Positions 1 through 42,734 of a stretch of DNA of 64,000 nucleotides are shown here, one piece after another (position 1 is the first letter of the stretch; each line of letters opens with the position of its first letter). The DNA is from Bryoerythrophyllum caledonicum (taxonomy: Eukaryota; Streptophyta; Bryopsida; Pottiales; Pottiaceae), in contig OZ020526.1 in assembly GCA_963971425.1 (NCBI GenBank), positions 4,491,976 to 4,555,975 of the forward strand, given 5' to 3'. The notes under the pieces were generated by a model. It saw only the letters and a list, made by a program, of their open reading frames with translations, made no database searches and was not told where the DNA came from. A program made the position numbers and the translations under genes.

Positions 1-640
1 ATTCAATCTCTTTAATATCATCCCACCAATATTTGTAATACTATATATTCTACCATTCTTTATAACATCACCCCTTCTCCATATGTGATACGACCCCCTC
101 CCATGTCTCATATCACCCCTCCCATGTCTCATATCACCCCTCCTCCTATGTAATACTACCTCTCCCTAGTGTCATGAAACTCATAAGAGGTAGTAAACAA
201 TGAACAATATAAAAATACTTAAACTATGATAATAGTGGAAGGGGGTTTGAGAGGAGTGGGTTTGTGTGGAGACAGATGTTGTATCTCTTTTATATCTAAA
301 TAATATTTACATTCAATGGAACTCAAAGAGTTAATGGAAGTCAAAGAATTGATGAGAGGCAAAGAGTTGGTGGAGTCCAAGAGTCGATATGAATGAGAAT
401 TGAAGCGTTCATGAAAATTGAAAAGTTATGTGAGTTATGGAAGTTGTGTAAGTTATGTAATTTGATGTTACTCAACCTTTTTATCATTAATGGCCAAGTC
501 GACCGACCTGATCACCGGCAAAGGATTGCTAAACGGACACTATTCTTTTATATATATAGAGATAAGCTTTCACCATTATAGTGAAGTAAGATTGTGCAAT
601 GACATTGGTTTCTCTAGCTATGCCACAAGATTTGATTTTC
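1..640. other. AT-rich intergenic DNA, no gene seen
   Basis: No convincing coding sequence is visible. Around 85-150 a short C-rich motif (CCCATGTCTCATATCACCCCT-like) recurs in tandem two to three times. Near 315-375 a loosely repeated GAGTTRATGGARGTCAAAGA motif occurs. Open frames are short and have no family resemblance. Confidence 0.5.
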
Positions 641-2050
641 TATAGAGGTGGCCTCAACTATGGAGAGTGTGATTTTAGGATTTGCCAAGAATTACAAAGC
701 TTGCTCCCAAATTTGTAATTGGTTCAAAGAAGTTGGCCTTCTTCATCGTCTCTTTGAACTTGTAAGACTTCTGCAATCAACATATGAGGACCACTATTTC
801 ATCCCAAATTGTTGTAACACGGGTCCAAACCTCAACAAGATTTTCTCGTAAACTTTGAAGAGAAATATGTAACAAGAGTTTCATAATGTCACAGTTTTGA
901 AATAACCAAAGTAATATGTATCACTTAGAGAGTCTTTGTATTACCCCAATCAACTTATGCCAAGGTGCAATGACCTATCCACTTCCACATTTATTTGTAC
1001 GACTTTATTTCAGATATCAATCACCATGGATGAACATGCTATTGAGTTATGATGGAGAATTTTGTTCCCATGTTTTCTCCAACTAGCTCTTACTCTGACA
1101 AACCTTAACAAGTCTTTTGAGAAGATCAATTTAAATTGTACAATCAATATTATGTCTCAACAACTAGCTCCTACTGTAACAAAGCTTAAAAAGTCTTTTG
1201 AGAAGATCAATTTAAATTGTACAATCAATATCATGTCTCAATGCATTTCTCAGAATATATATCAGATTCACATATGTGATGTCAAGTGATTCTCGCGTGG
1301 AGAAGTAGCAACTTATACCGAGCTCATTGAACACATAGCCTAGTTAATCCTTAAACGACAATTCATGACCTCTGTGGGTGGCTCAAATTGGATCACGCCT
1401 TCGTTTGTACTTCGGCATCATGTATGGTGCATTCTTTGAACTTCGGCATCATGAATGAACCAATCAATGATGAGCTTGCAACCTTTTACAAAGTTTATGT
1501 GCAATCCCAACCTACCTACCACAATCCTTCTAAAGCACAAATCTCTCATACAAACTGTGATTTGAATAATAAAATTTTCCTTAAAAATGCATCACAAGAA
1601 GGTAATTAGAATGATATCAAAAAATATGTGAAAACTTGAGTACAGGAAGAGCTACAAGGAAGATTGTGGAGAAATCAAGCCCCTCGGGCTTGCTCTGTCG
1701 TTTAACCGGTAAACGTCTGAAAGTGCCTTTGCGGCCAGTAGAATATCGTGTATTTTTTTTAATCTTTCGAATGGATTTAGACCTTTTATAGGTTAGAGTT
1801 CAATACAAAAGCTTGAAATTTACATCAATGCGGTTCTAGTGAGCTATTGAGATCCCAATTCAAAACTTCTTGTTGATAGCAAATGCCAATTATACAACTA
1901 TATATCTACTATCCCCATGAGACGTTTTGGAATTAAACTTGAAGTCGCAAATGGGCTCATAAATGATATCTACATTGTATAATACCATCCATTCAAGAGT
2001 ACATCCTCTTCGAGAAGTTACATGAATTGGGTGGAGTTGCAGATGGAGTC
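640..2050 (+). repeat. Dispersed degenerate repeat A, copy 1
   Basis: This stretch matches the one at about 31090-32720 in the same orientation over several collinear blocks, for example AGAGAAATATGTAACAA, GAATTTTGTTCCCATGTTTT and CTCATTGAACAC. The right-hand block (about 1950-2035) matches sequence on both sides of the solo LTR in copy 2, so this copy keeps the uninterrupted arrangement. No protein family is recognised; the frames are short and broken. It may be a decayed transposon body or a duplicated intergenic segment. Confidence 0.65.
1079..1243 (+). repeat. Tandem duplication of an 82-bp unit
   Basis: Two adjacent near-identical units start at about 1081 and 1163. Each runs from AACTAGCTC to ATGTCTCAA and contains AAGATCAATTTAAATTGTAC. 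The other copy of repeat A, near 31600, has only one counterpart, so the duplication is local to this copy. Confidence 0.8.
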
Positions 2051-3439
2051 TGCATTTCGGATCAGCGCTCGATAAGTGAGATGATTGCCTTGCTTCCTTC
2101 TTCTTTGAATCATAGAGCAAAGAAGGTTACATTAGTGCTCCTTGGGCCATTTCTTGATGATCTGCACTATGTACTTCACCTTCAATTCATAACAAAATTA
2201 TATCTTCTTTTGTTAATTATGTACTATTCCATGGCAAGATGGAGTAGTTGAATGGTTGAGGTTTGGTGCAGGAAGAACACAAACACTTGTAGTCTACATA
2301 ACTCCATATTTAAATAGCATATGGAATATCGCCAATGATCTTCGCTAAACTTGGTATAATCTTCAAGTGGACAAATATACATGTACAATGTTCACCAAGT
2401 GCAAAAATGCAAGAGACGTTTCAAGTACAAAAGTACAATGCAATGAAGCACAAAACAACATTTGCAACAAACACATGTAGTGCTCAAAAATCTATCCACT
2501 CAAAAATCTTCACATCTATGTACAGTTTCCGCTGCTATTCAACAATACTTTTCAAATAACATTCTATGTGCAATATTGACATTGCCAAAGAGACAAACAA
2601 TTTCTACAGTCTTCAATAGTGAAACCAACATACACTATGTAAAGAAGATGCAACTCCTTGGAGTCTTAGTTTGTCATGAGTGTGTGTGCAGATAATAACA
2701 ATTCAACATCACATGACTTCAGACAAAGATGAATATATCTTTCTATAACGAAATCTAAATTTTTAGTACGGAAACATAGCACGCATGCTCTTAGCCGAAG
2801 TCGCTGAAACCCTTTGAAAGCTCTTGTAAATATTTCAAACCACAAGTAATAAACTACAAAGGAAGCATTCACAAAACATGAATACAGTCAATCCTAAACA
2901 AGATACCTCAAAAATCCAACATAATTGCTAACTCCATACCTACCACCTACTTCCAACACACAACAGATCTACTATATGATACAAAGTACTTGACAGAGAC
3001 AGGGGTTTCTATCTATCTGATACTAGGTCTATCTTCTGAAAGTAGACAATCACATGGGAACAAACAAGTTGACAACCGACACCAATGCAGAAACTAAAAC
3101 ACAAAAGATGTTTGGAGTTGGTCCGCTTGAATTGGAGCATAACCACGCGTTAAACTCACTGCCCTGGAGACTTCGTATTCAGTTCACTCTCAATATGCAC
3201 TCTTGATGTCCATCGATTCCATTCCTCCATTGAAACGCTCCAATTCGTGGGTTCATCCATCCACCGCAAATGGATCGCAAGGCTGGTGATGTAAGCAAGC
3301 TGAAACAGGGACATCCAGGGAAATCCAGGGAGATGGACAGATATTCATTGCACCGAATACTAGTTACAGTTTTGAATGCCGGGTGCAAGTAGCGGTGGGC
3401 CTCCCCGGTGACCTGCGCGCCGGTCCCATGGCTATGCTC
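2051..3439. other. Intergenic DNA, probably including the lectin-TIR 3' UTR
   Basis: No gene is recognised. The part adjacent to 3440 would hold the 3' untranslated region of the minus-strand lectin-TIR gene. Open frames here are short and show no family signature. Confidence 0.5.
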
Positions 3440-5236
3440 TTACACAACGGATGGGAGGGGTGTGTCTTTGCCATGAGGTTTCTTAGGAGCAGGCCTTCGT
3501 CGGACTCTGGCCCTGGCTGCTTTCAAGCTTCTCGTCTCCTCCAAGATCTTCTCCATCTTCTCCCCGATGCTTTTGAGGTAATGTCTTTCGCCGTCAGGTT
3601 CATTCCGGGCAAAGTTTGGGTGGCCTCTCAACGTGGTGAGCCACCTGACTGCTTTGCGGCACTCGTCCAGATCCAACGCATGGCTCTTGAGATTCGAGAA
3701 TTCCACCCATTTACTCTCCCACACTCTGGCGTCCAGAAGTTTCTTCACTTCTTCCGGCCGAAGCTTGTAGAAGAGAGGCCAGACACTCACATCCCTTCCA
3801 CTGTCCGCATTCTTGAACGCGATCAACTCTGTCATGCACCAGCGGCTCTCGAAAAACTCCCTCGTCACCACCACCACGCCCAAATCGAATCTGTCCAGTT
3901 CTCGCAATATGACATGTGCAACCTTCTTGGTCTGTCCGATTGACTCCGAGTCGAAGAACACTTTGACACGATACAGTCGACTGGACCATCGCTTCCGGAC
4001 CAAATCGTCGTTCAGTCGAGACACGAAGTTTTTCACATTTGGTATATTACGGTGCGATAAAAAGATGCGGACCGGACGCGAGACCCACCAGAGCCAAAGT
4101 ATGCCGAAACAAACAACGACTGCTGCGATTGAGCCTACGGTAACGCCGATAATCAACCCCAGATTCTGTGGCGGCGGTGTTCCTGGTGGTTCAGCGTTGG
4201 GGACGCCAGGGGTTCGTGGCGGCGGAGGTGAAGGTTTGCGCGTGCCGGGAGGAGGTGGCGGAGTTGGACCGGACGGTGGAGCATCCTTGGCGAGTGATAT
4301 CGGAGGTGCTTCACCCTCGTTGCTGAAGCTCCAGGCGAAAATGCTATGCCGGTCCGCACCTGCACAGACGAGACGAATGAGGCCAGGAATTGATCAAAGT
4401 GAGTGGACCGCAGTTGCAGAGACAAGACACTCCAGGCTAGGAATGGAATCGAACTTAGTGGGTGTGTTGTGCACACCTGTTGTACCAATAGCGGCAGAGA
4501 AACCGACAAACGTGGGCTCGCTCAAGAGCGACAAGTCTACGGACGTCCAGGAAACGGAAGGCACAGCAGGCTTGACAGCCCAAGCTTGATACACATGGAG
4601 GTAGATATCCATGGTGGACTGAGCTTGAGAGTAATCGATCCACACCTGGTGGTAAACAGTTTTGGCACCCGTGACCAGAGGGATGGTCGGCTTAAAACTA
4701 AACGTGGAGTTCATGCTCGCGAAGTCCAGTCCAATATGATTGTCGTTCTGGTCGTTAAACTCGGGGTTTTGGTACGTATCGAATTCCACTCCGAATGTGT
4801 GCTCATCGGAGGCAACATCCTTGGTAACTGTGTCGGTGGTAGTGGTGATGAGCCCCAGGAAGTCATTGGGATCTCCGATAGTGGAGTTGTTGGGCACCAT
4901 GAGGAACGTGAAGCCGGAGCCTTTGCCGCTATACGCAGGGTGCTGGTAGATCTGGAAGATGAAGGTGGTGCTGAAGGACATCACTGCCGAGCTGCCCGGT
5001 ACCCTCATGGGAATCGCTTGCGGATAGAGAAGCCGTCCGACGGATCTGTCAGGAGGCCATACCAAAGTGTAACAACTTTCGTTTACGAGGTTGTACTCCC
5101 AATTGCTTAAAGCCACGATGTATAGTTCGGACTGTGATTTGAAGCCGTTGAACTTGAACGTGAATCCGAGGCTGCTCTGCGAGAAGGTCGTCAGCACCGC
5201 CACGGTCAGCAAACAGAAACTCCTCGCCACAGCCAT
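3440..5236 (-). CDS. L-type lectin / transmembrane / TIR-domain receptor-like protein
   Basis: Two exons, 5236-4477 and 4359-3440, with a 117-bp GT-AG intron (4476-4360), encode about 559 residues. Residues 1-24 are a hydrophobic signal peptide. Residues 25 to about 275 are a legume-lectin domain with the core VEFDT and the metal-site stretch DNHIGLD. Splicing joins GFSAAIGTTG to the canonical final strand FAWSFSNEG. A proline-rich stalk follows, then one membrane helix (about 322-347, IIGVTVGSIAAVVVCFGILW). The cytoplasmic TIR domain (about 348-500) starts RIFLSH and has the catalytic-Glu motif SRWCMTEL (Glu about 431). A basic tail ends the protein. ATG 5236 is used because the upstream in-frame codons are not ATG; a 5' UTR intron ending just before it is possible. 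Plant lectin receptors normally carry a kinase here. Inference: a surface glycan receptor signalling through TIR NADase chemistry. Confidence 0.85.
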
Positions 5237-5896
5237 TGCACCTGAACCCAATCAGACAGGTCAGCGCCTCCGCTATCAAGGCACTAAAACGTCATGAAGA
5301 AGTAAATTAATCGATGGACCTCACCTCGTCACATACTCATCCAGTCCACGAAACGAAGCGAAAACATGAGATGCCTGACAGATTATTCTTCGCAAGAGCT
5401 TCGGTTTGGACTACGAATTTGACCATGCACTGGTCTGTGATGCATCGATCAGCTTGATACTCACGTTGGGTGCAGGCCATGTAGAAACTAGGACTGTCTG
5501 GTTTAATTAAAGGCAAGCTTTGTGCGAGTAACTAGTGCATGTGCCTGTTCAAGCAGCTGTGGCACGCCAAGGTGAAGGAAAAGTATGGAATCTAGCGAAG
5601 GGGGAGCGTTAGGTGCTTACAAGGAGCCCGGAGCCGCGATTACGATGGACTGCAGTAAGCCTCATCACTGTGGGAGGTTCCTGATTGAAGACGATGCCAT
5701 CAACAGCTTGATCGGTTGTCTGCAAGATAGGTCTCCGTTTGTGTGCAGACAGACTTGGCCGGGCTTGTATGCTTAAAACAGGCGCCTCCACTTGTATGTG
5801 AAATAGTCGGTATGGGTCCCACACGCCATCACTGGCTCGAGCCTCCGGCCTCCCGTATGGGCTCGGCATGCTCTAAGTTAAGACATAGTTATTTGT
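5237..5896. other. Upstream region of the lectin-TIR gene
   Basis: Presumed promoter and 5' leader of the minus-strand lectin-TIR gene. No element can be named with confidence. Short open frames near 5585-5870 have no recognisable product. Confidence 0.4.
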
Positions 5897-11401: not shown

Positions 11402-14200
11402 TCACTGCTCTCGCGCCTGGAGCTCTGAGACTGATGGTGATCCCCATTGTGGCACACGAAATGTAGGGTGGAAATTTTGCACAGGCGTTGGCTGTAGAAT
11501 TGGTTGTGATGGGTGGGTTGGCATCGTCGATATCATTGGGCCACCAAATTGGTTGTGCAGGAGGCGTGCGTCCATGTAGAATTGTTGATGCATCTGGGGC
11601 GATGGTGGTGTAAAGGTCGCAAACTGATTGGGGATTCCACCTGGAGCGAAGGTGAAGTCCCTGCGCCACGGCTCCGACGCATGGCCGCTCTCCTCCCCAG
11701 CGCTCCCGCTTGCGTGCGCTTCCTCCGAGCTCCCGACTTGCTGGCCCTGTGCTGTCGCCGTTGCCCTCCCGCCGCGACGACGCGGGCCGACTCGCTCTGC
11801 AGCCAGCCTGACTTTCTCTGCAGCTTTCATGGCGCGCGTCGCTGCGACCTGAGCAGCGCGCTCAGTTCGCATGCGCAGCGCCAGTTCCTTCTCGGCGTTT
11901 CTCTGCTCGCGCGCTGCAGTTGTTTCCAGCGCCCTCGCCTCCTTCTCGAGCGCCTTCCTACGCTTCGCGGCCTCTTTCTCCTCACGTACCCTCTCTTTCT
12001 CTTGTGCTGCTAAATCTTTTGCCTCTTTTTGTCTTTCAACTGCCGCTGCATACTCATCCGAGGTCAATATCTTGGACTGTGTGAAATCCAGGATGGGATC
12101 GCGCCTTCGGGGATTTGCACGGGCAGCAATGGTGGGCAACGTCAGGAATCGAGTGATCGACTCGGGCTCCCCCTCATCGAGCTCCAGCCTCGCCAATTCG
12201 TTGGCGACTTCTTCGTCAGTGTGATCCGGCGCCACAAAAAAATGTGCCGCAGTTGAGTCGGGGACTTCGTCGAACTCTGCCTCCATCGACTGGGAGCTCG
12301 CAGCCTCTAACGGTACGTCGAAGTCTCCCGTCCTTTGCGGCCCTGACTGTGGTTGCTCCGTAGGACCTCCGCCCTCTGCCGTTTCCTCTCCGACTTGTGC
12401 AGTACCTGTCTCGTAGAATATTTCTGACGGTGTGAGATGTCTGTTCATGGCTGCAGGGTTGATGGGACATATACCTGTGCCGCGGAAGCCGCTCAGAATG
12501 TTGCTCGAGGTGAGAGCTTTTCGCAACCCCAGAGAAACCCACTGCGCTAGAGTAGTCTTGTTTGCTGGTTGAGACATGTTTCGAGATGTCCAATAATCTC
12601 GGTAGGCTCTGAAATGTAGCTTGAATGGCTTGAAGATACTAACGTCAAGTGGCTGCATGGCGTGCGATGTGTGCGCAGGTAGCGTGAGAATGTCCAGCCC
12701 TGCCGCACGAGCCTCTCTGACGACATCGAGGGTCACATGCGAATTATGCCCGTCAAGAATTAAGAGGTGCCTGCGTTCTTGCGAAATACCGCCCTGTCCT
12801 TGCACACTCTCAATGAAGTGGGACAACCACGCACTAAACAGGTACGTAGTCATCCAAGCCCGGGGCTGCATTGCCATTGTAGCCCCGGGCTCGCACCTTT
12901 CAATGTAGTTCTGCCTGAACCTTGTGCCCCGGAAAACGTAGAAAGATGGAATAGCTGACCCCCCTGCGTTTATGCAAACTAGGACAGACAGCCACTCTCT
13001 CTGATCCGGTACGATTGAATGAACATGCCGTGCGCCTCTGCGAGCGATGACTACACCCCCACCATTGCGCCCCGCTTGCGCCCCCGACTCATCACAGTTC
13101 CAGATTTGATCTGGACTGTAATTGTGCAAGGTACATAGACTTTCCAAATTGTCATAGAAACTTTTGACGTTAGCAGCACACAATCCCTTTGCCCGTGCGG
13201 TTTCTAGAGCCTGTGCTACTCGTAACGTGAGCTCTGGGTGGCGGCGCTTCCACCAGCGCATCCAGCCCTGGTCCGGGATACCATTGCGGAAGGGTGTCGG
13301 CCTGGACTTGGTTATGTCGTAGACTTTCAACTTTAATGCCGTGGGTGTAAGGCCTAGTCCCAATTCACACATCCGTATGCAGTAATCGACTAACTGTTGC
13401 TCCTCAGCTGGACTTAAAACTGCAGCAGGTCCTCTCTTTCTAGTCCTCCTGATGCCATAACACCACTCTCGAAATGTGGAATAAGGTATGTGATACATAT
13501 CAGATGCTTTTTTCATGCTCATACCTCCATCTACGCATGCCATTGCTTCTCTAAGTTGGCTGCTCGTCCATGGTCTCTCACGTCTTATGCTACTGCTGCT
13601 GCCACCTCTTTGCCGTCCCTCACGAGCTCCACGGGGTTGTGATGGCTGTGTACCGGGGCTTTGAAGGACAGCCCGAAATGCCAAGGGCTGTGTAGGAGAG
13701 TCGGAGTTCAGGGCGGTGATGTCCTCGATGGAGTGCCCCTGTGACTGCCGGACCGCTCCCGTCCTCGCTGCTCTCGTCGACCTCCTCAGCGGAGCCCCAC
13801 GTGAGACCACCCCGCTGGTGAAGAGGTGAACGCCTCCGACGTTCCTGTACAGCCCAGGGCCTGCTGCTGATCGGCCAGGCTCCTGAGACAGTCCCCTTGC
13901 TTGGACGCCATCGGAGCCACCCCGTGCTCTTTCACCTGCTGAGCCTCTCCGTGCTTGCAGACTTGCTGTGCCGCTGGAGTCTCCACGCTGCCTCTGCCGG
14001 CTTTGCATGACCATGTTCAGTTGGCTGTAGTCCATCATCTGGTTCCCTTCGGCCTCCCCTTCTTCACTACTACCTCCGTCACTGCCCTCCATGTTCTGAT
14101 CCTCGTCCTCTAAACCATCCCCACTCTGGTTATCCTCATCTGACCAAGTTCCCTCATAGTGATCACTAAGTGCTACGGTACCATGCAGTTGAGGTGCCAT
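11402..14200 (-). CDS. Pogo-like (Tc1/mariner, DDE_1/CENP-B type) transposase, intact
   Basis: One uninterrupted 932-residue ORF starts at ATG 14200. The first 200 residues are acidic and low-complexity. A psq-type helix-turn-helix follows at about 208-250 (KKASDMYHIPYSTFREW), then a second DNA-binding helical region (LKVYDITKSRPTPF). The DDE nuclease core has its acidic residues in NCDESG (about 368), LILDGHNSH (about 481) and QPLDVSIFK (about 517). The last two are 35 residues apart, giving DD35D. The C-terminal third holds a long Lys/Glu/Ala-rich coiled coil (about 700-800). The ORF is much more GC-rich than its flanks and has no stop or frameshift. It may be a recent transposon or a domesticated gene; no convincing terminal repeats with TA duplication were found. 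Confidence 0.88.
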   Translation of the reverse strand: MAPQLHGTVALSDHYEGTWSDEDNQSGDGLEDEDQNMEGSDGGSSEEGEAEGNQMMDYSQLNMVMQSRQRQRGDSSGTASLQARRGSAGERARGGSDGVQARGLSQEPGRSAAGPGLYRNVGGVHLFTSGVVSRGAPLRRSTRAARTGAVRQSQGHSIEDITALNSDSPTQPLAFRAVLQSPGTQPSQPRGAREGRQRGGSSSSIRRERPWTSSQLREAMACVDGGMSMKKASDMYHIPYSTFREWCYGIRRTRKRGPAAVLSPAEEQQLVDYCIRMCELGLGLTPTALKLKVYDITKSRPTPFRNGIPDQGWMRWWKRRHPELTLRVAQALETARAKGLCAANVKSFYDNLESLCTLHNYSPDQIWNCDESGAQAGRNGGGVVIARRGARHVHSIVPDQREWLSVLVCINAGGSAIPSFYVFRGTRFRQNYIERCEPGATMAMQPRAWMTTYLFSAWLSHFIESVQGQGGISQERRHLLILDGHNSHVTLDVVREARAAGLDILTLPAHTSHAMQPLDVSIFKPFKLHFRAYRDYWTSRNMSQPANKTTLAQWVSLGLRKALTSSNILSGFRGTGICPINPAAMNRHLTPSEIFYETGTAQVGEETAEGGGPTEQPQSGPQRTGDFDVPLEAASSQSMEAEFDEVPDSTAAHFFVAPDHTDEEVANELARLELDEGEPESITRFLTLPTIAARANPRRRDPILDFTQSKILTSDEYAAAVERQKEAKDLAAQEKERVREEKEAAKRRKALEKEARALETTAAREQRNAEKELALRMRTERAAQVAATRAMKAAEKVRLAAERVGPRRRGGRATATAQGQQVGSSEEAHASGSAGEESGHASEPWRRDFTFAPGGIPNQFATFTPPSPQMHQQFYMDARLLHNQFGGPMISTMPTHPSQPILQPTPVQNFHPTFRVPQWGSPSVSELQAREQ

Positions 14201-14483
14201 GATATGCTAGTGAAGGCAGCACTTGTAACTATTGAAATTGCACAATAAAACTATGAGAATGTGAGGAAGAAGTGTTTAGAATGATGTGTGGAAAGGTTGC
14301 CTCAAACCCGACTTCTTATTGCTTCTTGCTTGACGTCACAGATTTTTAATTCTGACAAAGATGGAACTAGTAGCTGCTAATTCTGCACCAATTTTCAGTT
14401 AACATTCATTACCACAACCGAGCCTTCGATTTTCTGGAAGTTGTCATTAGGTGAATGCAAACCACCACACCACCACTGCCATC

Positions 14484-16739: not shown

Positions 16740-19700
16740 CTCCTCATCTAGGGCACAAGCACATGCACAAGAAGTTTGACCCCTGCTCACAACGCGATCG
16801 AGACCAAAGCCGACACGCAAGACCAGTTTACAAGAATCAACGCCCTACAATTTCAGCTAAGTTACACATACGTATCACATATTTTGCAATGCTTCAGTTT
16901 TGTCTACACAAATATGTTAGAAACTCCCTAGGGACTAACGTGGTTCTAACAAGTATGTCTACCCCCCGTCTCAAGTGGTCACAAAATCGACACAGATCAG
17001 GAAGATCAATACCGGTATGGAGGCATAACAACACCGTGCAACACCACCCTAGAATGGGCGACTTGACTGCGCCACACCAACCACAAAAAACGGCATCGAA
17101 TCCTCCACACCTGCATCAAAATGACAAGAGCAAGACAGCCATCAGCACCACACATAACGACACATTCAACGCCTCAACATTCTCACTCACCAAGGTAAGT
17201 ATACTAAACACCTACCTAACCTTATTTCTCTCTCAAACGCAGGACACCAGCAAAGAATACGTAACCAATAGAGAGGCAACAATTTACAAAGCAGCCCGTC
17301 GGCACAAACACAAGGAGATGGTTGGATACAAAGCTACGAAACGACATACAACATCAACGCGTCAACATCAGAAACCAGCACCCTCGAGAACACAAGCATC
17401 CTCAACAACATAGGCAGCATGAGATGGGAAGAAAAAACGCAACAGGAGATGGAAAGAAAAAAACCAACGTCAATGCGCCAAGATCATCATCCCCGAGGAT
17501 ACATCATTCCCCCTCAATAAGGTAAGCATTCCCAAACCCAACCTAACCACTACTTGCATCCGAATTCAGGAAACAGAGAAAAAAAGCGGACCCAACAACA
17601 AGACGACAAGCAGCACAAAAGAACGGAGCTACAACTAGCAGCAGCTGGACAGAAGAATGACAAGAATAAAAAATCCAACATCACAAGCCCCTGGACCCTA
17701 CACTCTAAAGAATCCCACAACGCGTCCACCACAACGACATCACAAAGCACAAGATCAAGCACACCAACAAGGAGAAGAAACATCAAGACACCATGAGCAC
17801 AGCAGGTACGTACATATCCAGGTAAGCAACTCTAGCCTAACCCTATTTCCTTTATCCTTTGATAGCAAAACTCTACTAAACATTGACAGAATGCCAAGAG
17901 GGAGGAAACACACAGGGAAGCACAGCCACTCACAACCAAGCACACAAAACCCTAGCCGCCACAACAAAAATGTTGAATTCACAAAAAAGCAAGATTCAAG
18001 CTCCCATTCAAGCCATGACTACAGTCCAGCCGCAATCCAATGACTCCTAGAAGATGCAAACCCTAGACGCCCAACAATCCACAAGAGAAGACGTTCATCG
18101 ACCACAACAACATCCATTAAACTTCAACACGATACAAGGTATATATTGCACCCTCACTCCTCTCCCAAATCCTCTTACATTGCTCCTCTGCGCCGACAAC
18201 TACTCCCCACGGAGGAGGAACTTCGTGACATCTATCCAGCCCGTGAGAAGTTTACGAACCTGTGAAGAGACGAGCAGCACCTGAAGTGGAAGAAGTCGCC
18301 ATCCTCACGATCTTTTCCAACAGCCCTCGCCAGTGAAGAGCAGTCCTCTCCCCTTTCTACATGCTTGTCGATTTCTGTATGGCTTGCTTGCAAACTTATT
18401 ACCACTAACTCAAAGTTGGCATGTTTTTCACAGACAAGGAGACACCTGCAGACAACAAGAACAAGACAACCCAAGTTAGACATCGCCTCTAGACCAGAAC
18501 ACAAGAAATCGAAGACCATACACAGGAAGCAGCTCGGTGACCTACCCAAACACAGGGACTCTGCCGACCCGCCTCGCGACAGTTCGCAAACGAATGGCCC
18601 ATCACGCTGCACACACTCTCTGCCCCCTGACCTAGGGCCCTGCCCACCGACGCAACCGCCGCGAAGTCCCTGCCTGCGCAATAGTGCGCCGAGATCCAAG
18701 CCCAGACGTTGCCCTTCACACCAAGGCCCAAGAACCTGCCGATCGCCACTACCAGTGTGCAGATCCTGCCAACTCAACAACGCGACATCACATTAAAGAC
18801 ACTGGCAGCTGAGGCAGCTGAGGAGGATGCCTAGACCCTGCCAACTGCTCGCAGTAGCTTGGCGAACCTCCCCGCATGAGGCTCACGTAACGCACGCTGA
18901 CGGCACACCGGCATACACGGCGAAGAAGGCGTACCCTAACCCCCCCAGGTGCAGACGCCAGCAGACCAAGACGACCGAAGCCGCCCAAGAATCGCGCCGG
19001 AGGCCTCCCAAAACCCTGCACCCTTGCCTGTTGTTGACCTGTGAACCCCGGATTTGGGCGGCAGACAGCGCCATACTTGGCAGTCGTTCGTCGCGGTTCA
19101 ACGGAACCCTCCTGAGCCTCCTCTCAACATCGATTTTGATGCAATATTCTCGGGCACCACCATCCGGCACGAACTCGTATGCGCGACCTGCAACATCAAG
19201 AGTTGGTGGGAAGGAGAAGGCGAAGCTCCCTGTGCCACTAACGATTGGAGGAACGGGAGGGCCAGTCAAAGACGCAAGGAAACTCACCCCAGCCGCAAGT
19301 GCAGACAAGCAAACCCTAGCCGGGAGCGCAGACAAGCAGCCCCTTGCCGCGGGCACGATAGAGCAACCCCCTGCCGCAAATACGAAGGAGGAAACATACG
19401 GGCAGCCTAGAGCCACGAACGTGAGATAGACAACTGCAGGGGTTACTAGTCAAAATAAGTTTCTGCAACATAGTACACAAAGTGTAACCACATATTCAGG
19501 TTATTTCCCCTCTATATCTTTCTTACAATCTATTGTTCTAGGCCACAATTGGGATTTTATGCAATCCTATGGGCATGTAAACAACAAGTAATATCTAAGC
19601 TTGTTACTTGGAGAGGTGCCCAACATTTTGGCACCTCTCACGTGTGTGTATGTGTAAAAGTCAATGTGTATCTCTATATCATTCCCCCTCAACCCTTAGT

Positions 19701-19878
19701 TAATGGTCTAGTCATTTGTTGGTATAGCATCAGTATTTCCTTCCAGCCCTTCTTGTTAAACTCAACTTCAAAAAGCCCTCAACGTATGTTGGGGGGAGAA
19801 GTTAAGAACAAGAGGATAAGGGCAGACGATGAGATAATTCAATGTATTCTTATCATAGTTTGTGCTAAATCCTACAGA
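16740..19878 (+). other. Probable 5' untranslated region of the LINE, with spaced micro-intron-like modules
   Basis: The plus strand is A/C-rich without convincing coding. Three 44-48-nt segments look like tiny introns: 17195-17242, 17522-17569 and 17822-17865. Each starts GTAAGY, has a CCTAACC branch-point-like core and ends in YAG or TAG. They are about 300 nt apart, suggesting degenerate tandem modules. From 18540 to 19410 the sequence is GC-rich, and an open frame at 18827-19429 has no recognised domain. The true 5' end of the element is not defined. Confidence 0.4.
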
Positions 19879-21465
19879 ATGTCTAAATCCCAAGATGCGG
19901 CCACCTCCTCCAAGCGCCTGTTTGTTGAAGTTGTAGAAGACAATCCTTGTCCAGTAAGTATAAACCGCAATGCCTTGATTATTACAAACACCACCCAGAA
20001 AAAGGTGAAAGCAACAAGTTTGCCTCACCTCGAATTTTGGCTTGGTTTTCATACAATGAACACAATTGCAAAACGAAATGGGAGTGCAAAATCACCAATC
20101 ATTAGCATTGAAGAATTGGTCAAATCCGGTCTAAATGCAAAAGAGGCAAGTGAGAGCTTTGAATCTCTACCTGCCTTTCCATTTGTCCCCCAAAATGAAT
20201 GGCCATCTAGTAGGATTGATGGTAAATTGGGTAATCATTTTAACCTCACTCAACTTCCAAGTGAAGTTGAGGTGGATTGCAATGGTTATGCACTGGATTA
20301 CCAAGTTTCAATTCATTTTGCACTTGGAGACCAAATATGGACAAAGAAAATTGTGCTAGAAATGGTCAAAAGTAGGTTGAATGAAATTGAAATTCCAACA
20401 GGGTCAAGCATTGGTGAGCCTATAGCAATCTTTTGCTATCACCAAACTGACAATTGGAATGGGGTCCTCAAGTTACATTTAAAAAATCCAGAAATAGATG
20501 GGAGAGGCCTTTTGAAAGGATGGAGATCCTTCATTCTGATCTTGAATGAAGGGATTCCACACAAAGGAAAGGTATGCAAAGCATATGACTCCCTTGCCTT
20601 CTCCCATCTACTATCAGTGAAGATATCTAGTCCAAACCTTGCCAATAGGGAGTCGTTTGACTTGCACGCAGAAATTGTAAGAGAAAGTTTTGCAAGAGGT
20701 CACGACTTTGAAGTGACCAGGGTAGAAAAAAAGACTTTCTCTGATTTCGCGTGGGTCAAAACTTCCTCTCCGGATCAAGCAGCCAAAGTCAAAGACTATA
20801 AAGTCTCATTTCAAAATGAGATTTTCGTACCAATCTTTGCTACCCGGAAAATCGATGAAGATGAAATTGCCAAAAAAAACTGCCTCATACTCATTGCAAA
20901 GAATCTTAATAAAACAAAAAGTGAGAAGGAATTGACAAGCGGAATGAAATCCATGCTCGGGGAAGAGAATGTGCTCGATATATTCTTCAAACTTGAGCAT
21001 GGTCGCCACGTAGGCACATGTAACATAGAATGTTTGAATGCCGCAGTATACAAAAAGTATGTCAAACAAAGTAAAAAATTGCATGGAAAATATATCATGT
21101 TCACTCCCCACCCTAAAAGCTTGGACGGTAGCAACAAGCCAAGTGCAGAAGAACTCGCAAAATTAGGGTTTTCAGATGTGAACGCCGCAATAGCAAATGT
21201 CGTGATTGCCATGGAGAATGGGCTGAACAAGGGCAATGGGGTCACCTTGGAGCAACTCTGGAAGGAAATGAAGACAATGAAGGGAGAGATTGTACAAGAG
21301 GCAAGACAATATGCGGATATGGTACAAGCAAACACGGTGAAATCTCTCCGAGGTGAAATGTCAACCCTTCGATCCCAACTCATCCAAACCATCATGGCGG
21401 CAGAATCTCAAGCATCGGAAAGAGAGCAACGGGCTATCGAGGGCAAGATGGACATATCAAACTAG
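19879..21465 (+). CDS. LINE ORF1 protein, RRM-like with C-terminal coiled coil
   Basis: From ATG 19879 (MSKSQDAATSSKRLF) the ORF runs 528 residues without interruption. The frame is open further upstream, but that part looks like untranslated sequence. The N-terminal half has no recognised fold. Around residues 330-420 an RRM-like unit is suggested by CLILIAKNL (RNP2-like) and GRHVGTCNIECLNAAVYKKY (RNP1-like). The last 100 residues form a charged helix (LEQLWKEMKTMKGEIVQEA), probably a coiled coil for multimerisation. By analogy with other LINE ORF1 proteins it should bind element RNA. ORF2 begins about 450 bp downstream on the same strand. Confidence 0.7.
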   Translation: MSKSQDAATSSKRLFVEVVEDNPCPVSINRNALIITNTTQKKVKATSLPHLEFWLGFHTMNTIAKRNGSAKSPIISIEELVKSGLNAKEASESFESLPAFPFVPQNEWPSSRIDGKLGNHFNLTQLPSEVEVDCNGYALDYQVSIHFALGDQIWTKKIVLEMVKSRLNEIEIPTGSSIGEPIAIFCYHQTDNWNGVLKLHLKNPEIDGRGLLKGWRSFILILNEGIPHKGKVCKAYDSLAFSHLLSVKISSPNLANRESFDLHAEIVRESFARGHDFEVTRVEKKTFSDFAWVKTSSPDQAAKVKDYKVSFQNEIFVPIFATRKIDEDEIAKKNCLILIAKNLNKTKSEKELTSGMKSMLGEENVLDIFFKLEHGRHVGTCNIECLNAAVYKKYVKQSKKLHGKYIMFTPHPKSLDGSNKPSAEELAKLGFSDVNAAIANVVIAMENGLNKGNGVTLEQLWKEMKTMKGEIVQEARQYADMVQANTVKSLRGEMSTLRSQLIQTIMAAESQASEREQRAIEGKMDISN

Positions 21466-21736
21466 TAGTGCCAAACAACGCTGTAATAGAAAGAAATACA
21501 ATAGTATATATATATACTACACTATGTATTAAAATAATCGAGAATACTTATTATAATAAATTTTTAAAAAAATACATAGTATATTTATATACTACAAAAC
21601 ATAACAAAAAAAATCGAAATATGGAAATTTTTTTATAAAATAGTATATACCAAAATATATACTATACAGAAAGTCGATAAAAATATATATAATAGAAAAA
21701 ACATAGTACACCTATATAATACAAAACAATTTAAAC

Positions 21737-21888
<152 letters not shown>

Positions 21889-21918
21889 CACCACCACCAC
21901 CAAAAGATAAAGCCCCCA

Positions 21919-22749
21919 ATGACATCAAAAACAACAACAGCAACAACAACAATAACAACAACAACATCAACAATAATAAACCTCCAAAGACACCAACAAC
22001 AACAAAAACCCCAACAACTCCAACCACCCAAACAACCCCTACAAAACCTAAAACCCCAACAACAACACTATCCTACCACAATCTACCTCTGTAAAATAAT
22101 AATACTTCTCAGCGGTGACATTGAAAAAAATCCAGGCCCCATGCCAAACATAATAAAAACACACCCCGCAGCTCATAAAAAACGTGCAAAAATGTACTTC
22201 ATCCCTAGTACTATAAAACTACACCCCGAGTATCAACACCTTGCTAACACATTTTCACCACTACTAAAGAATACACATAAACTACATAACTCACATAACA
22301 TGACCTACTGGCATATAGCACACTACATTGAACAAAAAACTACACATCCCCCATCACATATCCTATATGCTTTAATTATTACAGTACACCCCTCTCTAGA
22401 AGAGTGCAACCAAATATTAGCCCTACAGAATACCAATACCACAAATTGGACCAATACTCTCCTTAACAACTTAATCACTCTACATAACCCACCCGAAAGA
22501 CATATTAATACAAAACACCCGTATACAAGTTTCCTAGCAGAAAATCAAAATATTATTCAACATAGAGACTCCATACACAAAGAAATATATGATTTCGTAC
22601 ACAGTCAAACCTCACCCCCCACACAAAACACTATCCAACTACACTTCCCATTCCTGCCACATGAACTAACTAAAGAAATACGAGATGCTTTGAGCCTATC
22701 CCAGAATACACATTCCCATCCCCACCAACCCCATATATACCACCTGTAA
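21919..22749 (+). CDS. LINE ORF2 N-terminal region with 2A-like peptide
   Basis: The ATG-started frame gives a Thr/Gln/Pro-rich leader of about 57 residues, then a short hydrophobic stretch and LLSGDIEKNPGP (residues 63-74). This matches the 2A consensus D-x-E-x-N-P-G-P, which makes ribosomes skip the final Gly-Pro bond. About 190 residues of unknown fold follow (including MTYWHIAHYIEQ and ILYALIITVHPS). The true frame seems to slip by -1 near 22700, since the -1 frame gives a proline-rich linker that runs into the APE domain. The TAA at 22747 is therefore probably mutational, and this is the N-terminal part of one polyprotein ORF. Confidence 0.7.
   Translation: MTSKTTTATTTITTTTSTIINLQRHQQQQKPQQLQPPKQPLQNLKPQQQHYPTTIYLCKIIILLSGDIEKNPGPMPNIIKTHPAAHKKRAKMYFIPSTIKLHPEYQHLANTFSPLLKNTHKLHNSHNMTYWHIAHYIEQKTTHPPSHILYALIITVHPSLEECNQILALQNTNTTNWTNTLLNNLITLHNPPERHINTKHPYTSFLAENQNIIQHRDSIHKEIYDFVHSQTSPPTQNTIQLHFPFLPHELTKEIRDALSLSQNTHSHPHQPHIYHL
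22099..22140 (+). other. 2A-like ribosome-skipping motif
   Basis: Codons encode IILLSGDIEKNPGP. The invariant Asp, Glu, Asn-Pro-Gly and Pro are all present, preceded by the hydrophobic residues usual for active 2A sequences. Skipping would release a leader of 73 residues from the APE-RT polyprotein. Confidence 0.85.
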
Positions 22750-24740
22750 ATCATAACGAAAACACCAGAGACATCAATACATACATCTTAACATGGAACG
22801 CTGCATCCCTAAACACTGCTCTCCCATGCCTCCACAATCTATCTACCCACACCAACACACCACCCGCCATAATTGCTATACAAGAAACTAAATTAACGGC
22901 TACTAAATCCACAAAATACATCCAAAAAAAATTCCCCGATTACAAACTTATATTTAATAACACTCATGCCCTTACAAGATGCATCCAACAACGAATGCCA
23001 TATACACCAACGAGAGGAGGCCTCCTCATGCTCATACACCAATCATATGCCTTCCCTGGGAATATTACTAAAATTCCTACCCCGGCTAATATATCACCAT
23101 ACCTTCAAATTATTAAAATTTCTAACCGACCCCTCCAACCATGGCTCATTCTTCACCTATACATGCCATCGCACATAGAAGACTCTAGGCTTATTCCGGA
23201 AATCCAAAATTCCATCACTTCACAAATTAATACGCACACTAACCATACAATAATACTTTGTGGAGACTTTAACCGAGATATTGCCCTTATTGGACGACAA
23301 AACGGAGAGACCTTCACCCCCCCACGTGATATAGACTATCAATGGCAAAATTACACGGATAACCTAAAATTATATCTGATTCCAACCGATACACAATACT
23401 CTCGTCAAGGAGGACTTAATTACACACACACTAGCCTAATTGATGGATTTTACATTAAAACACCTAACCATACCCAATACACATCTATCACCAATACCTC
23501 AACCAACTTAAACTCGGACCACTTCCCAATCCAACTAAATATACCTCATAACATCCTTATAAGTAGACCCCCCACCAAAACAAACTCAAACGATATCAAA
23601 ATACTAAATCCCATCCCAAAAGAAAACCTTGATAACTTTAATACAATATTCTTTGAAAAAAACTCACTACAGATAGACTCCCTTACAGAAATTCTTTCCA
23701 ACCACCAACACCTAACACACATACAATGGCAAGAAGCCTCCACCTCTCTTGACAAAATTATTAATGAAATTTCTACTACATTAGAAAAGACATGTAATGC
23801 ACCTCCGACCCCACAACTCACACCTAGAACCTCGAATCAAGGGGGGTATCTCCGGAGAAAACTAGCCAAAAAGTGGAAACAACATCTTGTTACATACCAC
23901 AATATTCGGAAAACAATTTACATCGCTAAAACTAATCAAAATTGGCGAACCCACCCCATACTCTCTGAACTACAAAACCTTCGCCATCCCCAAATCCCAC
24001 AAGTACCACCGCTCAACAACCCTCACGAAGATTGGCTAAAAGACATTGCAGTCATTGCAAAAACCGCCAATAAACAAGCTCGGAAAATTACTACAAAATA
24101 TACAAGAGAATGTATCAGAAAAGCCATTTCTAAGTATCGTCTACTATACGAATCTAGCCCAAAAAAGATTAATAGAAAAGTCTTTAAAAACAACACAAAC
24201 TTACCACTAGATTCCATTCTAGATCAAAACAATAATATTCTAACCAGCCCAAACGACATTGCAAACGAAATACATTTTCAGCAATCCATAAACAATAGAC
24301 CATCCACCCCCTCATGTCACTTCCAACGACAACATACACCAACATGCACATGCGGGGTCAGGCAATACCCGTGGCATGATCTTGACGGATTCACCATTGA
24401 TAAAAGAGAAGAACCCACGACTCCTCTCCACACATATTATAACAGAGACACATATAACATGTGCCTAAAAAATTTGGGGACCAACAAAGCTCCCGGACCG
24501 GACCATATACCTAACTCAATTCTAAAAAACATGCCTCCGAGATTCCATGACCTTCTATCATTATTTTTCCTCCATTGTTACAAACAAAAAGCAATTCCTG
24601 CATCCTGGAAAACAAGTTTAACAATCTTATTATACAAAAAAGGCGACCCATCCAAGCTACCTAATCACCGACCTATTGCCTTAGCCAACACCATTTACAA
24701 ATTGTACACTAGCACATTAACATCAATACTATTGGCCTCC
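22749..24740 (+). pseudogene. LINE ORF2: APE endonuclease and N-terminal reverse transcriptase
   Basis: This frame is open upstream of the first ATG at 22995. The apurinic-endonuclease motifs appear in order: LTWNAASL, IIAIQETKL, CGDFNRD, LIDGFYI and SDHFPI. A basic linker follows, then the start of the RT domain (TNKAPGPDHIPNSIL, WKTSLTILLYKKGD, NHRPIALANTIYK). The frame is lost near 24740 in the A-run GGGAAAAACACC, where an indel moves the rest of RT into another frame. Confidence 0.85.
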
Positions 24741-26714
24741 GGGAAAAACACCAAATACTACACGAAAGCCAAGAAGGGTTTAGAGCTGAAAGAACTACCA
24801 CACGGCAAATCCAAACTCTCATCGCCGCTCTTGAGGATGCAAAATTCACTAATAAAGACATTTACATACTCTACATTGATTTCAAAAACGCTTTCGGTTC
24901 CCTTGACCATCCTCGCTTGCTAACCATTATGAGCGATCTTGGATACCCGTGCGACGCGGTCACACTGGTTGGCAATATATACTCCCAATCTACCACTACA
25001 TACGTTGGAGAATTCTTTGGTAAAACAAGCCCTATCCCTATCCAACGAGGGACCATCCAAGGCGATACATTAAGCCCATACCTCTTCATTATTTTTCTCG
25101 AACCCCTATTGAGATGGCTTCAAAGAGGGAATAATGGCTACACCTTTGGCACCTCAAAAGTTACCATAAACTCGGCCGCATATGCTGACGATCTTGCGGC
25201 CATCTCCGGACGCCTCAAATCACTCCAAACTCAATTAGATAAAATAGACAAATTTTGTCTATGGTCTGGGATGGAACTTCGGGTCCAAAAATGTGCCATA
25301 ACCGGATGTTCAAACAAATCTAAAACAAACCCGACCGCCTTCAAAGCCCTTATTCAAGCTAACAATATCCACTATCGTAACCAACCAATTCCGGTTCTAA
25401 ACCAAAACCAACCCTACATATACCTTGGAATAAACCTAGTCCCATCTTTCAAATGGAAAATTCAAATTCATGCTACTACTACAAAACTTATTAAACAATA
25501 CAAGGAACTTACACTTTGTCCGGCCACATTGCAACAGAAAATAAAAATGATTGATACCGTCATACGACTGGGTATCTCATACAGTTTCTATGCGGTCCCT
25601 TATTCCATGCCCGCCACAAATAAACTCGATAAAAAAATCATAGCCATACAAAAGAAAGTATGCAGACTCCCTAACTGTACGCCTAATATCATAACACAAC
25701 TCCCCCACGAACTATTCGGATTAGAAGCTTTCTCCCTCAAAAATGCCTACTTACGTTGCATTGGAGAACAACTCCAAAATGCACTTAACGATAAAGGACG
25801 ACTAGGACTAATTTACACTGGGCTCCTTCGGCACATCCTTGCCATTTATGGAGGAGCACAATACCTCCAAAGACTTAAAAAATCTGATTGTCTTCGGTCC
25901 CCCATTACCCGCACACTTTTTCTACTTAAAACAGAAGGTCAAATATTTCTTAAAAGCACACTAGAAGATTTCCTACTAGACCCCGCACCACTTGAACAAA
26001 ATTGGGCAAATGAAATTCATAACCTCCCTAGACTTGACCGACAATTATCCGACAAACTCCTACAAAAACTCTTCTCTGCAAACATTACTGATCTAAAACA
26101 AATTACACTACCAAATGGAACACACCTTATGGACGACAAGAGCTACAAAACACTCTATGGTACCCCTCATAAATTAATAAAAAGTGCACTAAACATTGCC
26201 AAACAATTATTTTGTCACCCTCCATGTCTCCCTACATGCCCCAACCCTTGCACCAATCACGCTCCACCGTACACACTTAAAGACTCATATATCATCAATC
26301 ACAATGACATCCACCCCAACACCAATCCCCCACTAATTCCCCCAAACCCACCACATTCACGACCATATGCCCCTCCACCACATATATTAAAAAACCCTTC
26401 CATACACCCAATAAATAACATGACCGTGCACAGACAAAATAAACACATTGACTCCAACAAAATAAGCAAACAATATACGTCGTACCTATGCCACTGGTCC
26501 CACAATAACAACACCTACGCCAAATGGCTCCCACAAAGAAATCTTTTCCCTTGGCACAACCCAAATACTTCCTTACATAACACCGAAATCCTCACACAAT
26601 ACTACCTTAGAACTCAAAACAGTTATTACCTAAATATCATACAAATACACCACCCCCAAGCACAACCTCGAGATAGAAGATTTGTCACACCACCCCTTAT
26701 TATCCCCTTCTTAA
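24740..26714 (+). pseudogene. LINE ORF2: reverse transcriptase palm and thumb
   Basis: After the frameshift RT continues with QEGFRAERTT, ILYIDFKNAFGSLDH (first catalytic Asp), RGTIQGDTLSPYLFI and the catalytic AAYADDLAAIS. About 500 residues of thumb and linker follow. The frame ends at 26824, but the inverted copy shows that the real frame changes near 26714, where one A is missing from TTAAC relative to copy 2. All three catalytic Asp residues are intact. Confidence 0.87.
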
Positions 26715-27014
26715 CATCTTTACAACTGAATGCAACCCAGAAACGGACATCCGAGCACAAACAAATACAATCAAAATACAACAAGACAATGCCCACGTAT
26801 ACGAAGGTAATGGTAGACATCTAATAACCATACCACTTGCTAGGCTACAATGGCTGTGGAACCAATATCACAACGCACTACTAACCCCCATTAACATCAA
26901 ACCAATACCCCAAACATTCGAAACCGAAATTGTTTGGCTATACCAAAGATATAACACCGAATACCCAAAAATGACCCCCTCAAAAATGCACACTACACAT
27001 TACCCGATCCTATC
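26715..27014 (+). pseudogene. LINE ORF2: conserved linker ending at a TAG
   Basis: This stretch encodes RLQWLWNQYHN and FETEIVWLYQRYN, both conserved in the inverted copy. The frame ends at TAG 27016-27018. The downstream domain continues in the -1 frame, exactly as it does in the inverted copy near 63061. Confidence 0.7.
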
Positions 27015-27494
27015 TTAGACTACCTTACTACATTCCTGAATATCACACATTCATACTTCTCATCCCCCATTACATGCTCCACAAAAATCTCAAAACGTTA
27101 CTCTCCATTCGAACGCGATAAGATTTTTGGGTCTCTTGGAAAAGCCTTTGATTATAAGTGGAGTGGAATAGGCCTCGCACACCCTCACAATGAAGAAGAA
27201 ACACAACAAGCAATACATTGGGCAAGCCTAGCGGCAAATAATGACCCCAACGACAATATCACCATTATTATCACTCCCGACACTCATTGGTACCACAACC
27301 CTAACCCACACTTAGGCCCATTCCCGGACTCCCACATCATAGTACTATTTGAAGCTGACTCCATGACTTACAAAGAACCCACTATACCATCGCAAATACA
27401 AACACCCCGCCTTGAACCAGCAACCCTACGTATCCTATGAATACATCAACAAACTCGTGAAATAGGTAATCTAGAAAACCTCACTCATCTCACT
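27015..27494 (+). pseudogene. LINE ORF2: middle domain with PCIF1-like methyltransferase resemblance
   Basis: The segment reads YFSSPITC, YSPFERDKIFGSLGKAFDY, then AHPHNEEETQQAIHWASLAA and ITIIITPDTHWY. Order and spacing resemble the core of PCIF1/CAPAM-type adenine methyltransferases: a SPLNC-like strand, an FGS loop, the NPPF catalytic position, a helix, then an IFIPEW-like strand. Where NPPF would lie there is AHPHN, in both copies of the LINE, so a catalytic role is doubtful. The similarity is recalled by eye and needs a profile comparison. One TGA interrupts the frame near 27438. Confidence 0.4.
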
Positions 27495-28524
27495 TTGATA
27501 GCAAAAAATCTAAACATTAACAAGGTATACACCGCAATTGCCCTCCCCACACCCATCTCAACCTGTGTAAACCGCAACAAAAAATGGTCTAAAACCCCCC
27601 ACACAAACATCTCCACATCACCAATGACCGAACTAAGCCTCCCCCTCTCTTACTACCAAATTAATATAGACCTTAAATTTGACCCCAACTTTAGCTACTA
27701 CACTGACGGCTCTTTCAAAGAACCAAACGAAGTAAGCCCGGGACATTGGCACCGAGAGAAAGCCGGTTATGGGATATACAATTCTACCAAACAAATTAAA
27801 TTAGGTAAAAGACTACATGGACTCCAGAATATTCTAAGAGCCAAAATGATGGCTATACACAAAACCCTTAAAATAATCACCACTCATTACCCAAACGAAC
27901 CGGCTCACATTTTTACAGATTGCATAAATGTATTATACCTCCTTAATACACATATTAAACACCCTACTTTACACAATAGTCACCCGGATAAAACTATCCT
28001 TACATCTATGGTTGAAATGCTCCAAAATTGTACACAGATTACTACACTCCATAAAGTTTGTGCTCATGCTAATATCGACGGCAATGAACAAGCCGACAAA
28101 CTAGCAAAGGAAGGACGAGAAAAAACCCACAAGAGTGCCGAACACCCATACGAACACGCCCATGCCACCCCATATTACTTCCATAGATATGAATGGCCCT
28201 CTATGAGTGAAACTCCTGATAAAGGCCCTGTACGATTCTTGGACAAATACCTCAAAAAACATGATCTTGTAAATAACCTAGAAAAACTTACAGAAAACTT
28301 TCCCAATATTGATAAATGGATTGGCAACCCAAACATTCATAATGTACTATCCAGTAATTTCTGGAAAAACCCCACTATAATGGATCCACAAATCACATGC
28401 CTAATCAAATTCCGCACCGGGCAATACATGGGCAATGCCCGCAAACAACTCTTCTTTGGAATAGAAAGATTCCCTACAATTACATGTCCAATTTGCAACA
28501 CCACGGACCCAGACACATGGCTAC
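27495..28524 (+). pseudogene. LINE ORF2: RNase H domain
   Basis: A type-I RNase H fold is clear: YYTDGSFKE (first Asp), HIFTDCINVLYLL (third acidic residue) and GNEQADKLAKEG (fourth). The second acidic position reads RAKMMAIHKTL here, Lys instead of Glu, while the inverted copy keeps RAELMAIHKTL. Copy 1 therefore lost a catalytic residue through a GAA-to-AAA change. The C-terminal part (CLIKFRTGQYMGNARKQLFF) leads into the CCHC finger. Confidence 0.85.
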
Positions 28525-35973: not shown

Positions 35974-36163
35974 AAGTTTGGTCTGAAATCTGTGATTCGA
36001 GTGTTCCTACAAAGTGGTCAAGGAGTTTTTGGCTGGGTTGCCTGGAGCGATCTGACCGTCAAAGTGGTACCAGTAATGGTTGTGTTTGGGTTAGCACCGG
36101 GTAGGGTGCTCTGCGCAAAAGGCTGACCTGTGGGGACGTGGTAAATGTCGGGGACTATACCTG

Positions 36164-37519: not shown

Positions 37520-37540
37520 ATCTCTGATAAGGCACGTATT

Positions 37541-42465: not shown

Positions 42466-42734
42466 AGTCGTATTGAATGCGTTGTTTCCCCTGCACACAT
42501 CAATGTCTCCGCATCATTCAGTTTCTCTGAAGAGTCTGACTTGCATTCTCTAACATAAAACATTGTAAGTTGCGTTTTGCAAGAAGAGAACTTAGCTGAT
42601 GTTGCAGAATTTCGTCCTTGGTAAAATGATCTTGTGTCTTGGCAGCTAATTCGAGTCTTGTGTAAGCAATAGTTTGTCTTTATGATAGTGCTAGAGTCCT
42701 AGTTGAGGAGGGGTTTGGTGTGTGGAATTTCTAT

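Follow-up and report, generated by a model that had tools for sequence, protein, structure and literature searches.

In the usual picture of plant immunity, receptors at the cell surface signal through kinases, and the intracellular layer consists of NLRs, some of which signal through TIR enzymes. A minus-strand locus from Bryoerythrophyllum caledonicum raises the question of whether a lectin ectodomain can be joined directly to a TIR domain in one membrane protein. The locus lies in a 64-kb window, which is the whole stretch of DNA analyzed here (contig C15, 4491976-4555975; assembly of 437 Mb in 894 contigs). The original prediction placed a lectin, a membrane helix, and a TIR domain at this position, and all of these parts were found there by Pfam profiles and hydropathy. 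When minus-strand 5236-4477 is joined to 4359-3440, the translation is a 559-residue protein. We favor the reading, at a probability of roughly 55%, that this protein is a single-pass type I membrane receptor whose ectodomain would control a TIR signaling enzyme.

Exon 1 (4477-5236, within an open frame at 4394-5251) encodes residues 1-253 and the first base of codon 254, comprising a signal-peptide-like start and most of a legume lectin. The signal-like segment spans residues 1-24 (5165-5236), with its end judged by eye and a hydropathy of 1.64 over residues 1-19. The lectin domain (residues 26-276, 4292-5161) is split by a predicted 117-nt GT..AG intron at 4360-4476. Exon 2 (3440-4359, within a single open frame at 3440-4393) contributes the last lectin strand, a stalk, the transmembrane helix, the TIR domain, and the stop codon. 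The stalk (residues 277-319, 4163-4291) is as proline-rich as had been proposed, with Pro at 20 of its 43 residues. Residues 320-342 (4094-4162) form the predicted helix, which peaks at residues 322-340 with a hydropathy of 2.58, is followed by SRPVR, and aligns at the helix position of the genome's own lectin receptor kinases. Both the signal-like start and the helix are predictions from a 19-residue hydropathy scan, in which one strong helix precedes the TIR domain. The signal-like start and the Arg residues after the helix suggest that the lectin would face outward and the TIR domain inward.

What the ectodomain might bind is constrained by its sequence. It matched Lectin_legB (PF00139) at residues 26-276 with 156.3 bits against a cut-off of 26.3 (E = 1.4e-45), and its best relative of solved structure was the legume lectin 4m3c (E = 1.7e-15). 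Glu151, Asp153, Asn157, Asp162, and His167, which we take to be the legume-lectin metal residues, are all present, as expected from the original prediction. The claim of a complete legume-lectin fold holds for the profile match and the metal residues but not for loop A, where Ser107 stands in place of Asp (GKGSGF versus ADGLAF in 4m3c). This Asp is presumably part of the legume-lectin monosaccharide site, and its replacement makes sugar binding by the window lectin doubtful. Loss of the loop-A Asp is common in this genome, since 12 of 27 aligned lectins lack it, including the receptor-kinase frame L016, and the other 15 retain it. The lectin of a second lectin-helix-TIR gene, described below, keeps the Asp but carries Thr at the usual metal-site Asn. 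A plain glycan sensor is therefore an unsafe reading for either protein, and that part of the original prediction is unsupported.

These substitutions lend weight to a different ligand, such as an extracellular nucleotide, a peptide, or a wall polymer, or to a role as a wall anchor through which the TIR domain would report the state of the wall. Passages of PMC9897758 offer a precedent, as they describe the L-type lectin receptor kinase P2K2 binding extracellular ATP via its lectin domain. We place such a non-sugar ligand somewhat short of even odds, and it can be compatible with the receptor explanation. The metal-site residues argue against it; because they are kept, binding at this edge may persist with its specificity altered.

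The putative cytoplasmic part of the proposed receptor is a TIR domain of plant type (residues about 350-530, 3530-4072). PF01582 matched residues 352-461 with 39 bits against a cut-off of 21.3 (E = 9.7e-10), and TIR_2 scored 35.8 bits against 28. Among structures in the Protein Data Bank, the closest relative was Arabidopsis 3jrn (E = 6.1e-8), followed by L6, RPV1, Roq1, RPS4, and RUN1. The predicted WCxxEL glutamate is Glu431 (codon at 3827-3829), located in WCMTEL and aligned with the Glu of WCLDEL in 3jrn; this catalytic-type residue is invariant across seven aligned TIRs. An SH motif and the Glu are common to the TIR domains of both fusion genes (WCMTEL and KWPMIEL), and the Glu also aligns with six other TIRs of the genome. 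Weak matches to bacterial defense proteins were obtained for the TIR part with NCBIfam (best 28.3 bits against a cut-off of 220) and PADLOC (best PDC-S66, E = 5.6e-8; TIR-TM, E = 0.0009). A structure model of the TIR domain alone, built with no alignment, had a mean pLDDT of 45.5 and was too poor for use. As for enzymatic output, portions of PMC11218826 report that 11 of 20 TIRs from non-flowering plants, moss TIRs included, gave cell death in Nicotiana benthamiana, and that in two cases, one fern and one ginkgo TIR, the Glu was required.

The TIR domains of animal Toll-like receptors recruit TIR adaptors, and the TIR domain here could likewise act as a scaffold rather than an enzyme, recruiting the TNLs or soluble TIRs of the genome or its lectin receptor kinases. 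Partners would be plentiful, with 150 scored TIR matches (the best 150 of 284 candidates). NB-ARC-like sequence followed the TIR in all six loci that were read by eye (L001, L004, L022, L029, L034, and L036), and LRR-like sequence also followed in L022, L029, L034, and L036, so these loci look like TNLs; the last four belong to the nearest TIR kin in the tree. The layout shared with animal Toll-like receptors (as depicted in parts of PMC7075850) points in the same direction. Against this stands the catalytic-type Glu, kept in both fusion proteins despite an overall identity of 30%, and we consider a pure scaffold unlikely.

The second gene was found by searching the whole genome with the window protein. 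Beside the query itself, one further match spanned both domains (query residues 20-529, 34% identity). It lies at G000:C10:3705119-3706576 (locus L011, minus strand 1468-3012) as one uninterrupted 529-codon frame, which needs no intron and thereby answers the main doubt about the window gene. Its Pfam scores were 147.1 bits for Lectin_legB (cut-off 26.3), 35.5 for TIR_2 (28), and 29 for TIR (21.3), and its helix reached a hydropathy of 2.56. The profile checks suggested at the outset thus came out above the cut-off, at 39 and 29 bits for the TIR of the two genes and 156.3 bits for the window lectin. BLASTP joined the two proteins in a single collinear alignment across the domain borders (493 columns, 30% identity, E = 2e-47). 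The G+C content at codon positions 1/2/3 is coding-like in both, at 0.52/0.46/0.64 for the window gene and 0.51/0.43/0.67 for the second. An independent frame free of introns therefore bears out the prediction that lectin, single membrane helix, and TIR domain belong to one protein, and the architecture is more than a one-off.

The member survey compared, by eye, 57 lectin matches (from 60 candidates) with the best 150 of 284 TIR candidates as same-strand neighbors. Such genome searches score the best candidates exon by exon, and the count of lectin-TIR genes is accordingly at least two. When the window lectin part alone served as query, the best match was a kinase-less lectin, L012 (38%), and the second gene reached 33%. 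Each profile matched 1 of 14 control genomes over the cut-off, namely Bacteroides ihuae for TIR and Methanocaldococcus jannaschii for Lectin_legB. Hydropathy ahead of the TIR domain could be measured for 33 of the 44 other rows of the TIR tree, those with at least 19 residues ahead of the TIR in the same frame; the maximum there was 1.69, versus 2.58 and 2.56 in the fusions. One further candidate, a lectin and a TIR about 7.5 kb apart on C8 (G000:C8:28984699-28996400; L028 and L029), was rejected as a fusion. Its upstream lectin match is a pseudogene with three stops, and its TIR frame, almost identical to a copy on C1, groups with TNL-like frames.

The two lectin-TIR genes appear to have obtained their ectodomains separately. 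Residues 11-319 of the second protein, covering ectodomain and helix, are 50% identical to a 788-aa lectin receptor kinase frame of the same genome, and residues 12-279 are 54% identical to a 772-aa one. In all six long lectin frames that were read (L013-L018), a kinase start (GxGGFGxVxxG) comes shortly after the helix, where the second gene has its TIR domain. In a tree of 27 lectins, the window lectin instead pairs with L012 (support 98/92), a 329-aa lectin frame without a kinase (G000:C15:17646623-17647417) whose hydrophobic C-terminal tail looks GPI-anchor-like by eye. A single clade of both lectin-TIR ectodomains was rejected (p-AU = 0.026) in this 27-lectin set, a result of modest support given with a long window branch.

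In a tree of 46 TIRs, from which pieces below 110 aa were left out, both fusion TIRs are long branches beside a large KWPMLEL group, apart from 16 rows with WCLREL or WCLDEL (split 100/98). A joint clade of the two was not rejected (p-AU = 0.365), although the branches concerned are long, with end branches of 1.53 and 1.7. Separate lectin ancestry of the two receptors is suggested with modest support. Lectins of different descent would imply either that fusion happened twice or that a single old lectin-TIR gene later exchanged its ectodomain, and these are the simplest histories for the pair.

Could the two genes be non-functional domain accidents, in which two lectin genes of a retroelement-rich genome landed upstream of a helix-TIR piece? 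Low copy fits this account, with two fusions found in the one genome covered, as does the presence of retroelements within the window. Each fusion gene is single copy; the window gene is long-branched in both trees and the second gene in the TIR tree, a pattern that neither shows nor excludes relaxed selection. Against this account, both frames are intact, over 513 and 559 codons; each still has its signal-like start, its stalk, and its helix, and residues of the TIR and of the metal site are conserved. These features persist despite the far divergence recorded by the end branches in the TIR tree, and the same layout occurs under two separate ectodomain types. We regard an accidental origin of this kind as improbable.

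The gene model itself was examined by scoring 57 versions of the locus, namely intron retention and the 56 GT/GC..AG splices that keep the frame open to the TIR stop, against a profile built from 26 lectins of the same genome that did not include the window lectin. The 117-nt intron ranked first at 142.3 bits, ahead of 140.5 and 138.8 for the next models and 134.5 for retention, in agreement with the predicted two-exon structure. Since frame-breaking splices were removed before scoring, this ranking fixes the place of the intron and does not by itself establish the fusion. The 117 nt of the intron are divisible by three and include an in-frame stop, so retention would yield a 280-residue lectin without a membrane helix. 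Exon 2 by itself is one open frame that carries GADRHSIFAWSFSNEG, which fits the W-S/T-F strand closing the lectin domain in 10 aligned rows, followed by the stalk, helix, and TIR domain. Because this frame spans the end of the lectin through the TIR, the fusion is visible at the DNA level, independent of splicing. The reading of the locus as two adjoining genes, to which the need to remove one intron lends some weight, is thus rejected as very nearly negligible: the exon 2 frame contains both the closing strand of the lectin and the TIR, the splice with the best lectin score also joins the TIR frame (among frame-keeping splices and retention), and the coding frame of the second gene has no intron. 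Chance similarity was likewise rejected on the Pfam scores and E-values.

Elsewhere in the window, several other elements were recognized. A non-LTR retroelement occupies 19474-29163 on the plus strand, with RVT_1 and RNase_H over the cut-off and endonuclease matches just below it; the region is very C-rich on that strand (GC skew to -0.54) and includes an ACA-repeat stretch at 21737-22018. A 933-residue open frame on the minus strand (11402-14203) matched DDE_1, HTH_psq, and HTH_Tnp_Tc5 over the cut-off and is a pogo/Tc5-type transposase or a domesticated version of one. A Copia-type LTR retroelement covers 34673-38698 on the minus strand in several frames, with RVT_2 at 220 bits in 34676-35893. 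Across the whole genome, among the best 150 of 1380 candidates for the Copia profile Pol_BBD, many lie in one tight cluster per contig on about 12 long contigs (e.g., C12:1.51-1.62 Mb, C4:25.82-25.89 Mb, C3:5.51-5.59 Mb, C9:1.50-1.55 Mb, C10:23.37-23.43 Mb, and C11:21.88-21.93 Mb), the distribution that a centromere-specific Copia element would show; a similar element is known from Physcomitrium. Further features are a thiol/thiopurine methyltransferase-like frame (41767-42513, minus strand; TPMT, 138 bits), possible O-GlcNAc-transferase-like exons (49940-52462, plus strand), and a 39-bp tandem repeat at 53418-53731 (8.1 copies, 95% matches) that is in frame as a repeat of about 13 residues. 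Within the possible transferase exons, Glyco_transf_41 matched 51731-52459 with 19.9 bits, below its cut-off of 25, and 49940-50398 had no Pfam match. No tRNA and no Rfam match was detected in the 64-kb window.

Under the favored receptor reading, the legume-lectin ectodomain on its proline-rich stalk would bind a ligand at the wall or membrane surface, and binding would cluster the receptor and bring the cytoplasmic TIR domains together. The clustered TIR, as an NADase or related nucleotide enzyme acting via Glu431, would then make a small-molecule or cell-death signal; clustering may instead switch on the recruitment of other TIRs. The protein would occupy the place of a lectin receptor kinase, with a TNL-related TIR rather than a kinase as its output. 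From the predicted protein we infer its surface location and topology, the binding of a ligand and ligand-driven clustering, its enzyme activity, and its role in immunity.

According to portions of PMC11218826, EDS1 is absent from seed-free plants, and mosses show an expansion of TIR-NLRs. A search for the EDS1_EP family gave no match in this genome or in the control genomes; since the controls were silent too, the result is weak and only consistent with the absence of EDS1. This genome may lack the receptor known to act downstream of TIR products in plants. The RPW8 profile gave 40 matches in the genome, 35 of them over the cut-off, and matched 1 of 14 control genomes, with none over the cut-off. 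Together with the L-lectin receptor kinases and the many TIR frames, these RPW8-type matches are the marks of a land plant, and the size of the TIR set points to a moss.

More tentatively, and a little below an even chance in our estimation, the two genes may represent a 'LecTIR' lineage. Surface TIR receptors would then have been built at least twice with different ectodomains, a TNL-related TIR having replaced a receptor kinase in one case and been placed behind a kinase-less lectin in the other. Extracellular recognition would feed directly into TIR enzyme signaling in a plant without EDS1, as an independent counterpart of the Toll-like receptor. The second gene and its separate lectin ancestry add to the interest of the finding in the window. 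If true, a surface ectodomain with a TIR tail would join both plant immune layers in one molecule, and a Toll-like layout would be reachable in plants too. With its TIR beside the membrane and a lectin as the switch, such a receptor would also offer a simple way to ask if clustering is enough by itself to activate a plant TIR, and which component takes up TIR products where EDS1 is missing.

The closest known relatives of this architecture are the L-type lectin receptor kinases, which combine Lectin_legB, a transmembrane helix, and a kinase. They share with the window protein a signal-like start, a legume lectin ectodomain, a stalk, and a single helix, and the ectodomain and helix of the second gene belong to their family, at 50-54% identity to lectin frames of the same genome. 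The window protein differs in having a TIR domain in the kinase position and no Pfam kinase match; no frame of at least 150 codons was present in window positions 1-3289. Published descriptions make L-lectin receptor kinases embryophyte-only (PMC10834447) or assign the combination to Zygnematophyceae and embryophytes (PMC9915684). The window protein also fits the definition of an L-lectin-RLP given in passages of PMC10834447, a lectin ectodomain with one or two helices and no kinase, its helix being assigned by hydropathy. That definition, as worded there, names no cytoplasmic signaling domain, whereas the window protein carries a TIR. Because kinase-less surface receptors are defined as 'RLPs', lectin-TIR proteins would be hidden as a class.

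Full-text literature searches, with supplementary tables outside their scope, returned no plant lectin-helix-TIR receptor. The nearest published plant architectures in the texts covered were the PP2-A5-type TIR-Nictaba proteins and a TIR-NBS-Lectin_legB-Pkinase class. The former likewise unite a TIR and a lectin in one plant protein (excerpts of PMC12355970 and PMC5485960). There, however, the TIR is N-terminal, the lectin is Nictaba/PP2, and the excerpts mention no helix, in contrast to the Lectin_legB domain of the window protein, which has no PP2 match. In the genome comparison tabulated in PMC5485960, that architecture is confined to Arabidopsis, with four genes. The latter class, named in part of PMC11126693, pairs a legume lectin with a TIR, but it is described there as species-specific and includes an NBS and a kinase, unlike a lectin-helix-TIR receptor. 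The main text of a 39-species TIR inventory (PMC9806590) contains neither 'lectin' nor 'transmembrane', and that of PMC6362431 contains neither 'Toll' nor the whole word 'TIR', although a legume lectin/TIR architecture could be listed in its Supplementary Table 3. We therefore describe the lectin-TIR proteins as a variant of known receptor kinds that is absent from the literature searched, which is not proof of absence.

Relative to TNL, TIR-only, and TNP proteins, the window TIR lies on the tree side of the large TNL-like KWPMLEL group of its own genome. It departs from TNLs and TNPs in that no NB-ARC match occurs in its 559 residues (Pfam) and in its possession of an ectodomain and helix. 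The proposed analogy with animal Toll and Toll-like receptors holds for the layout of ectodomain, one predicted helix, and putatively cytoplasmic TIR (PMC7075850). That TIR survey describes single-span TIR receptors for the animal Toll/Toll-like and IL-1R groups, and the word 'lectin' is absent from its main text. The analogy does not extend to the ectodomain, which is a lectin instead of LRRs, as Pfam found lectin and TIR models only. The TIR domain, for its part, is related to those of plant TNLs and has kept the catalytic-type Glu. Lectin-TIR receptors and animal Toll-like receptors would be separate in origin.
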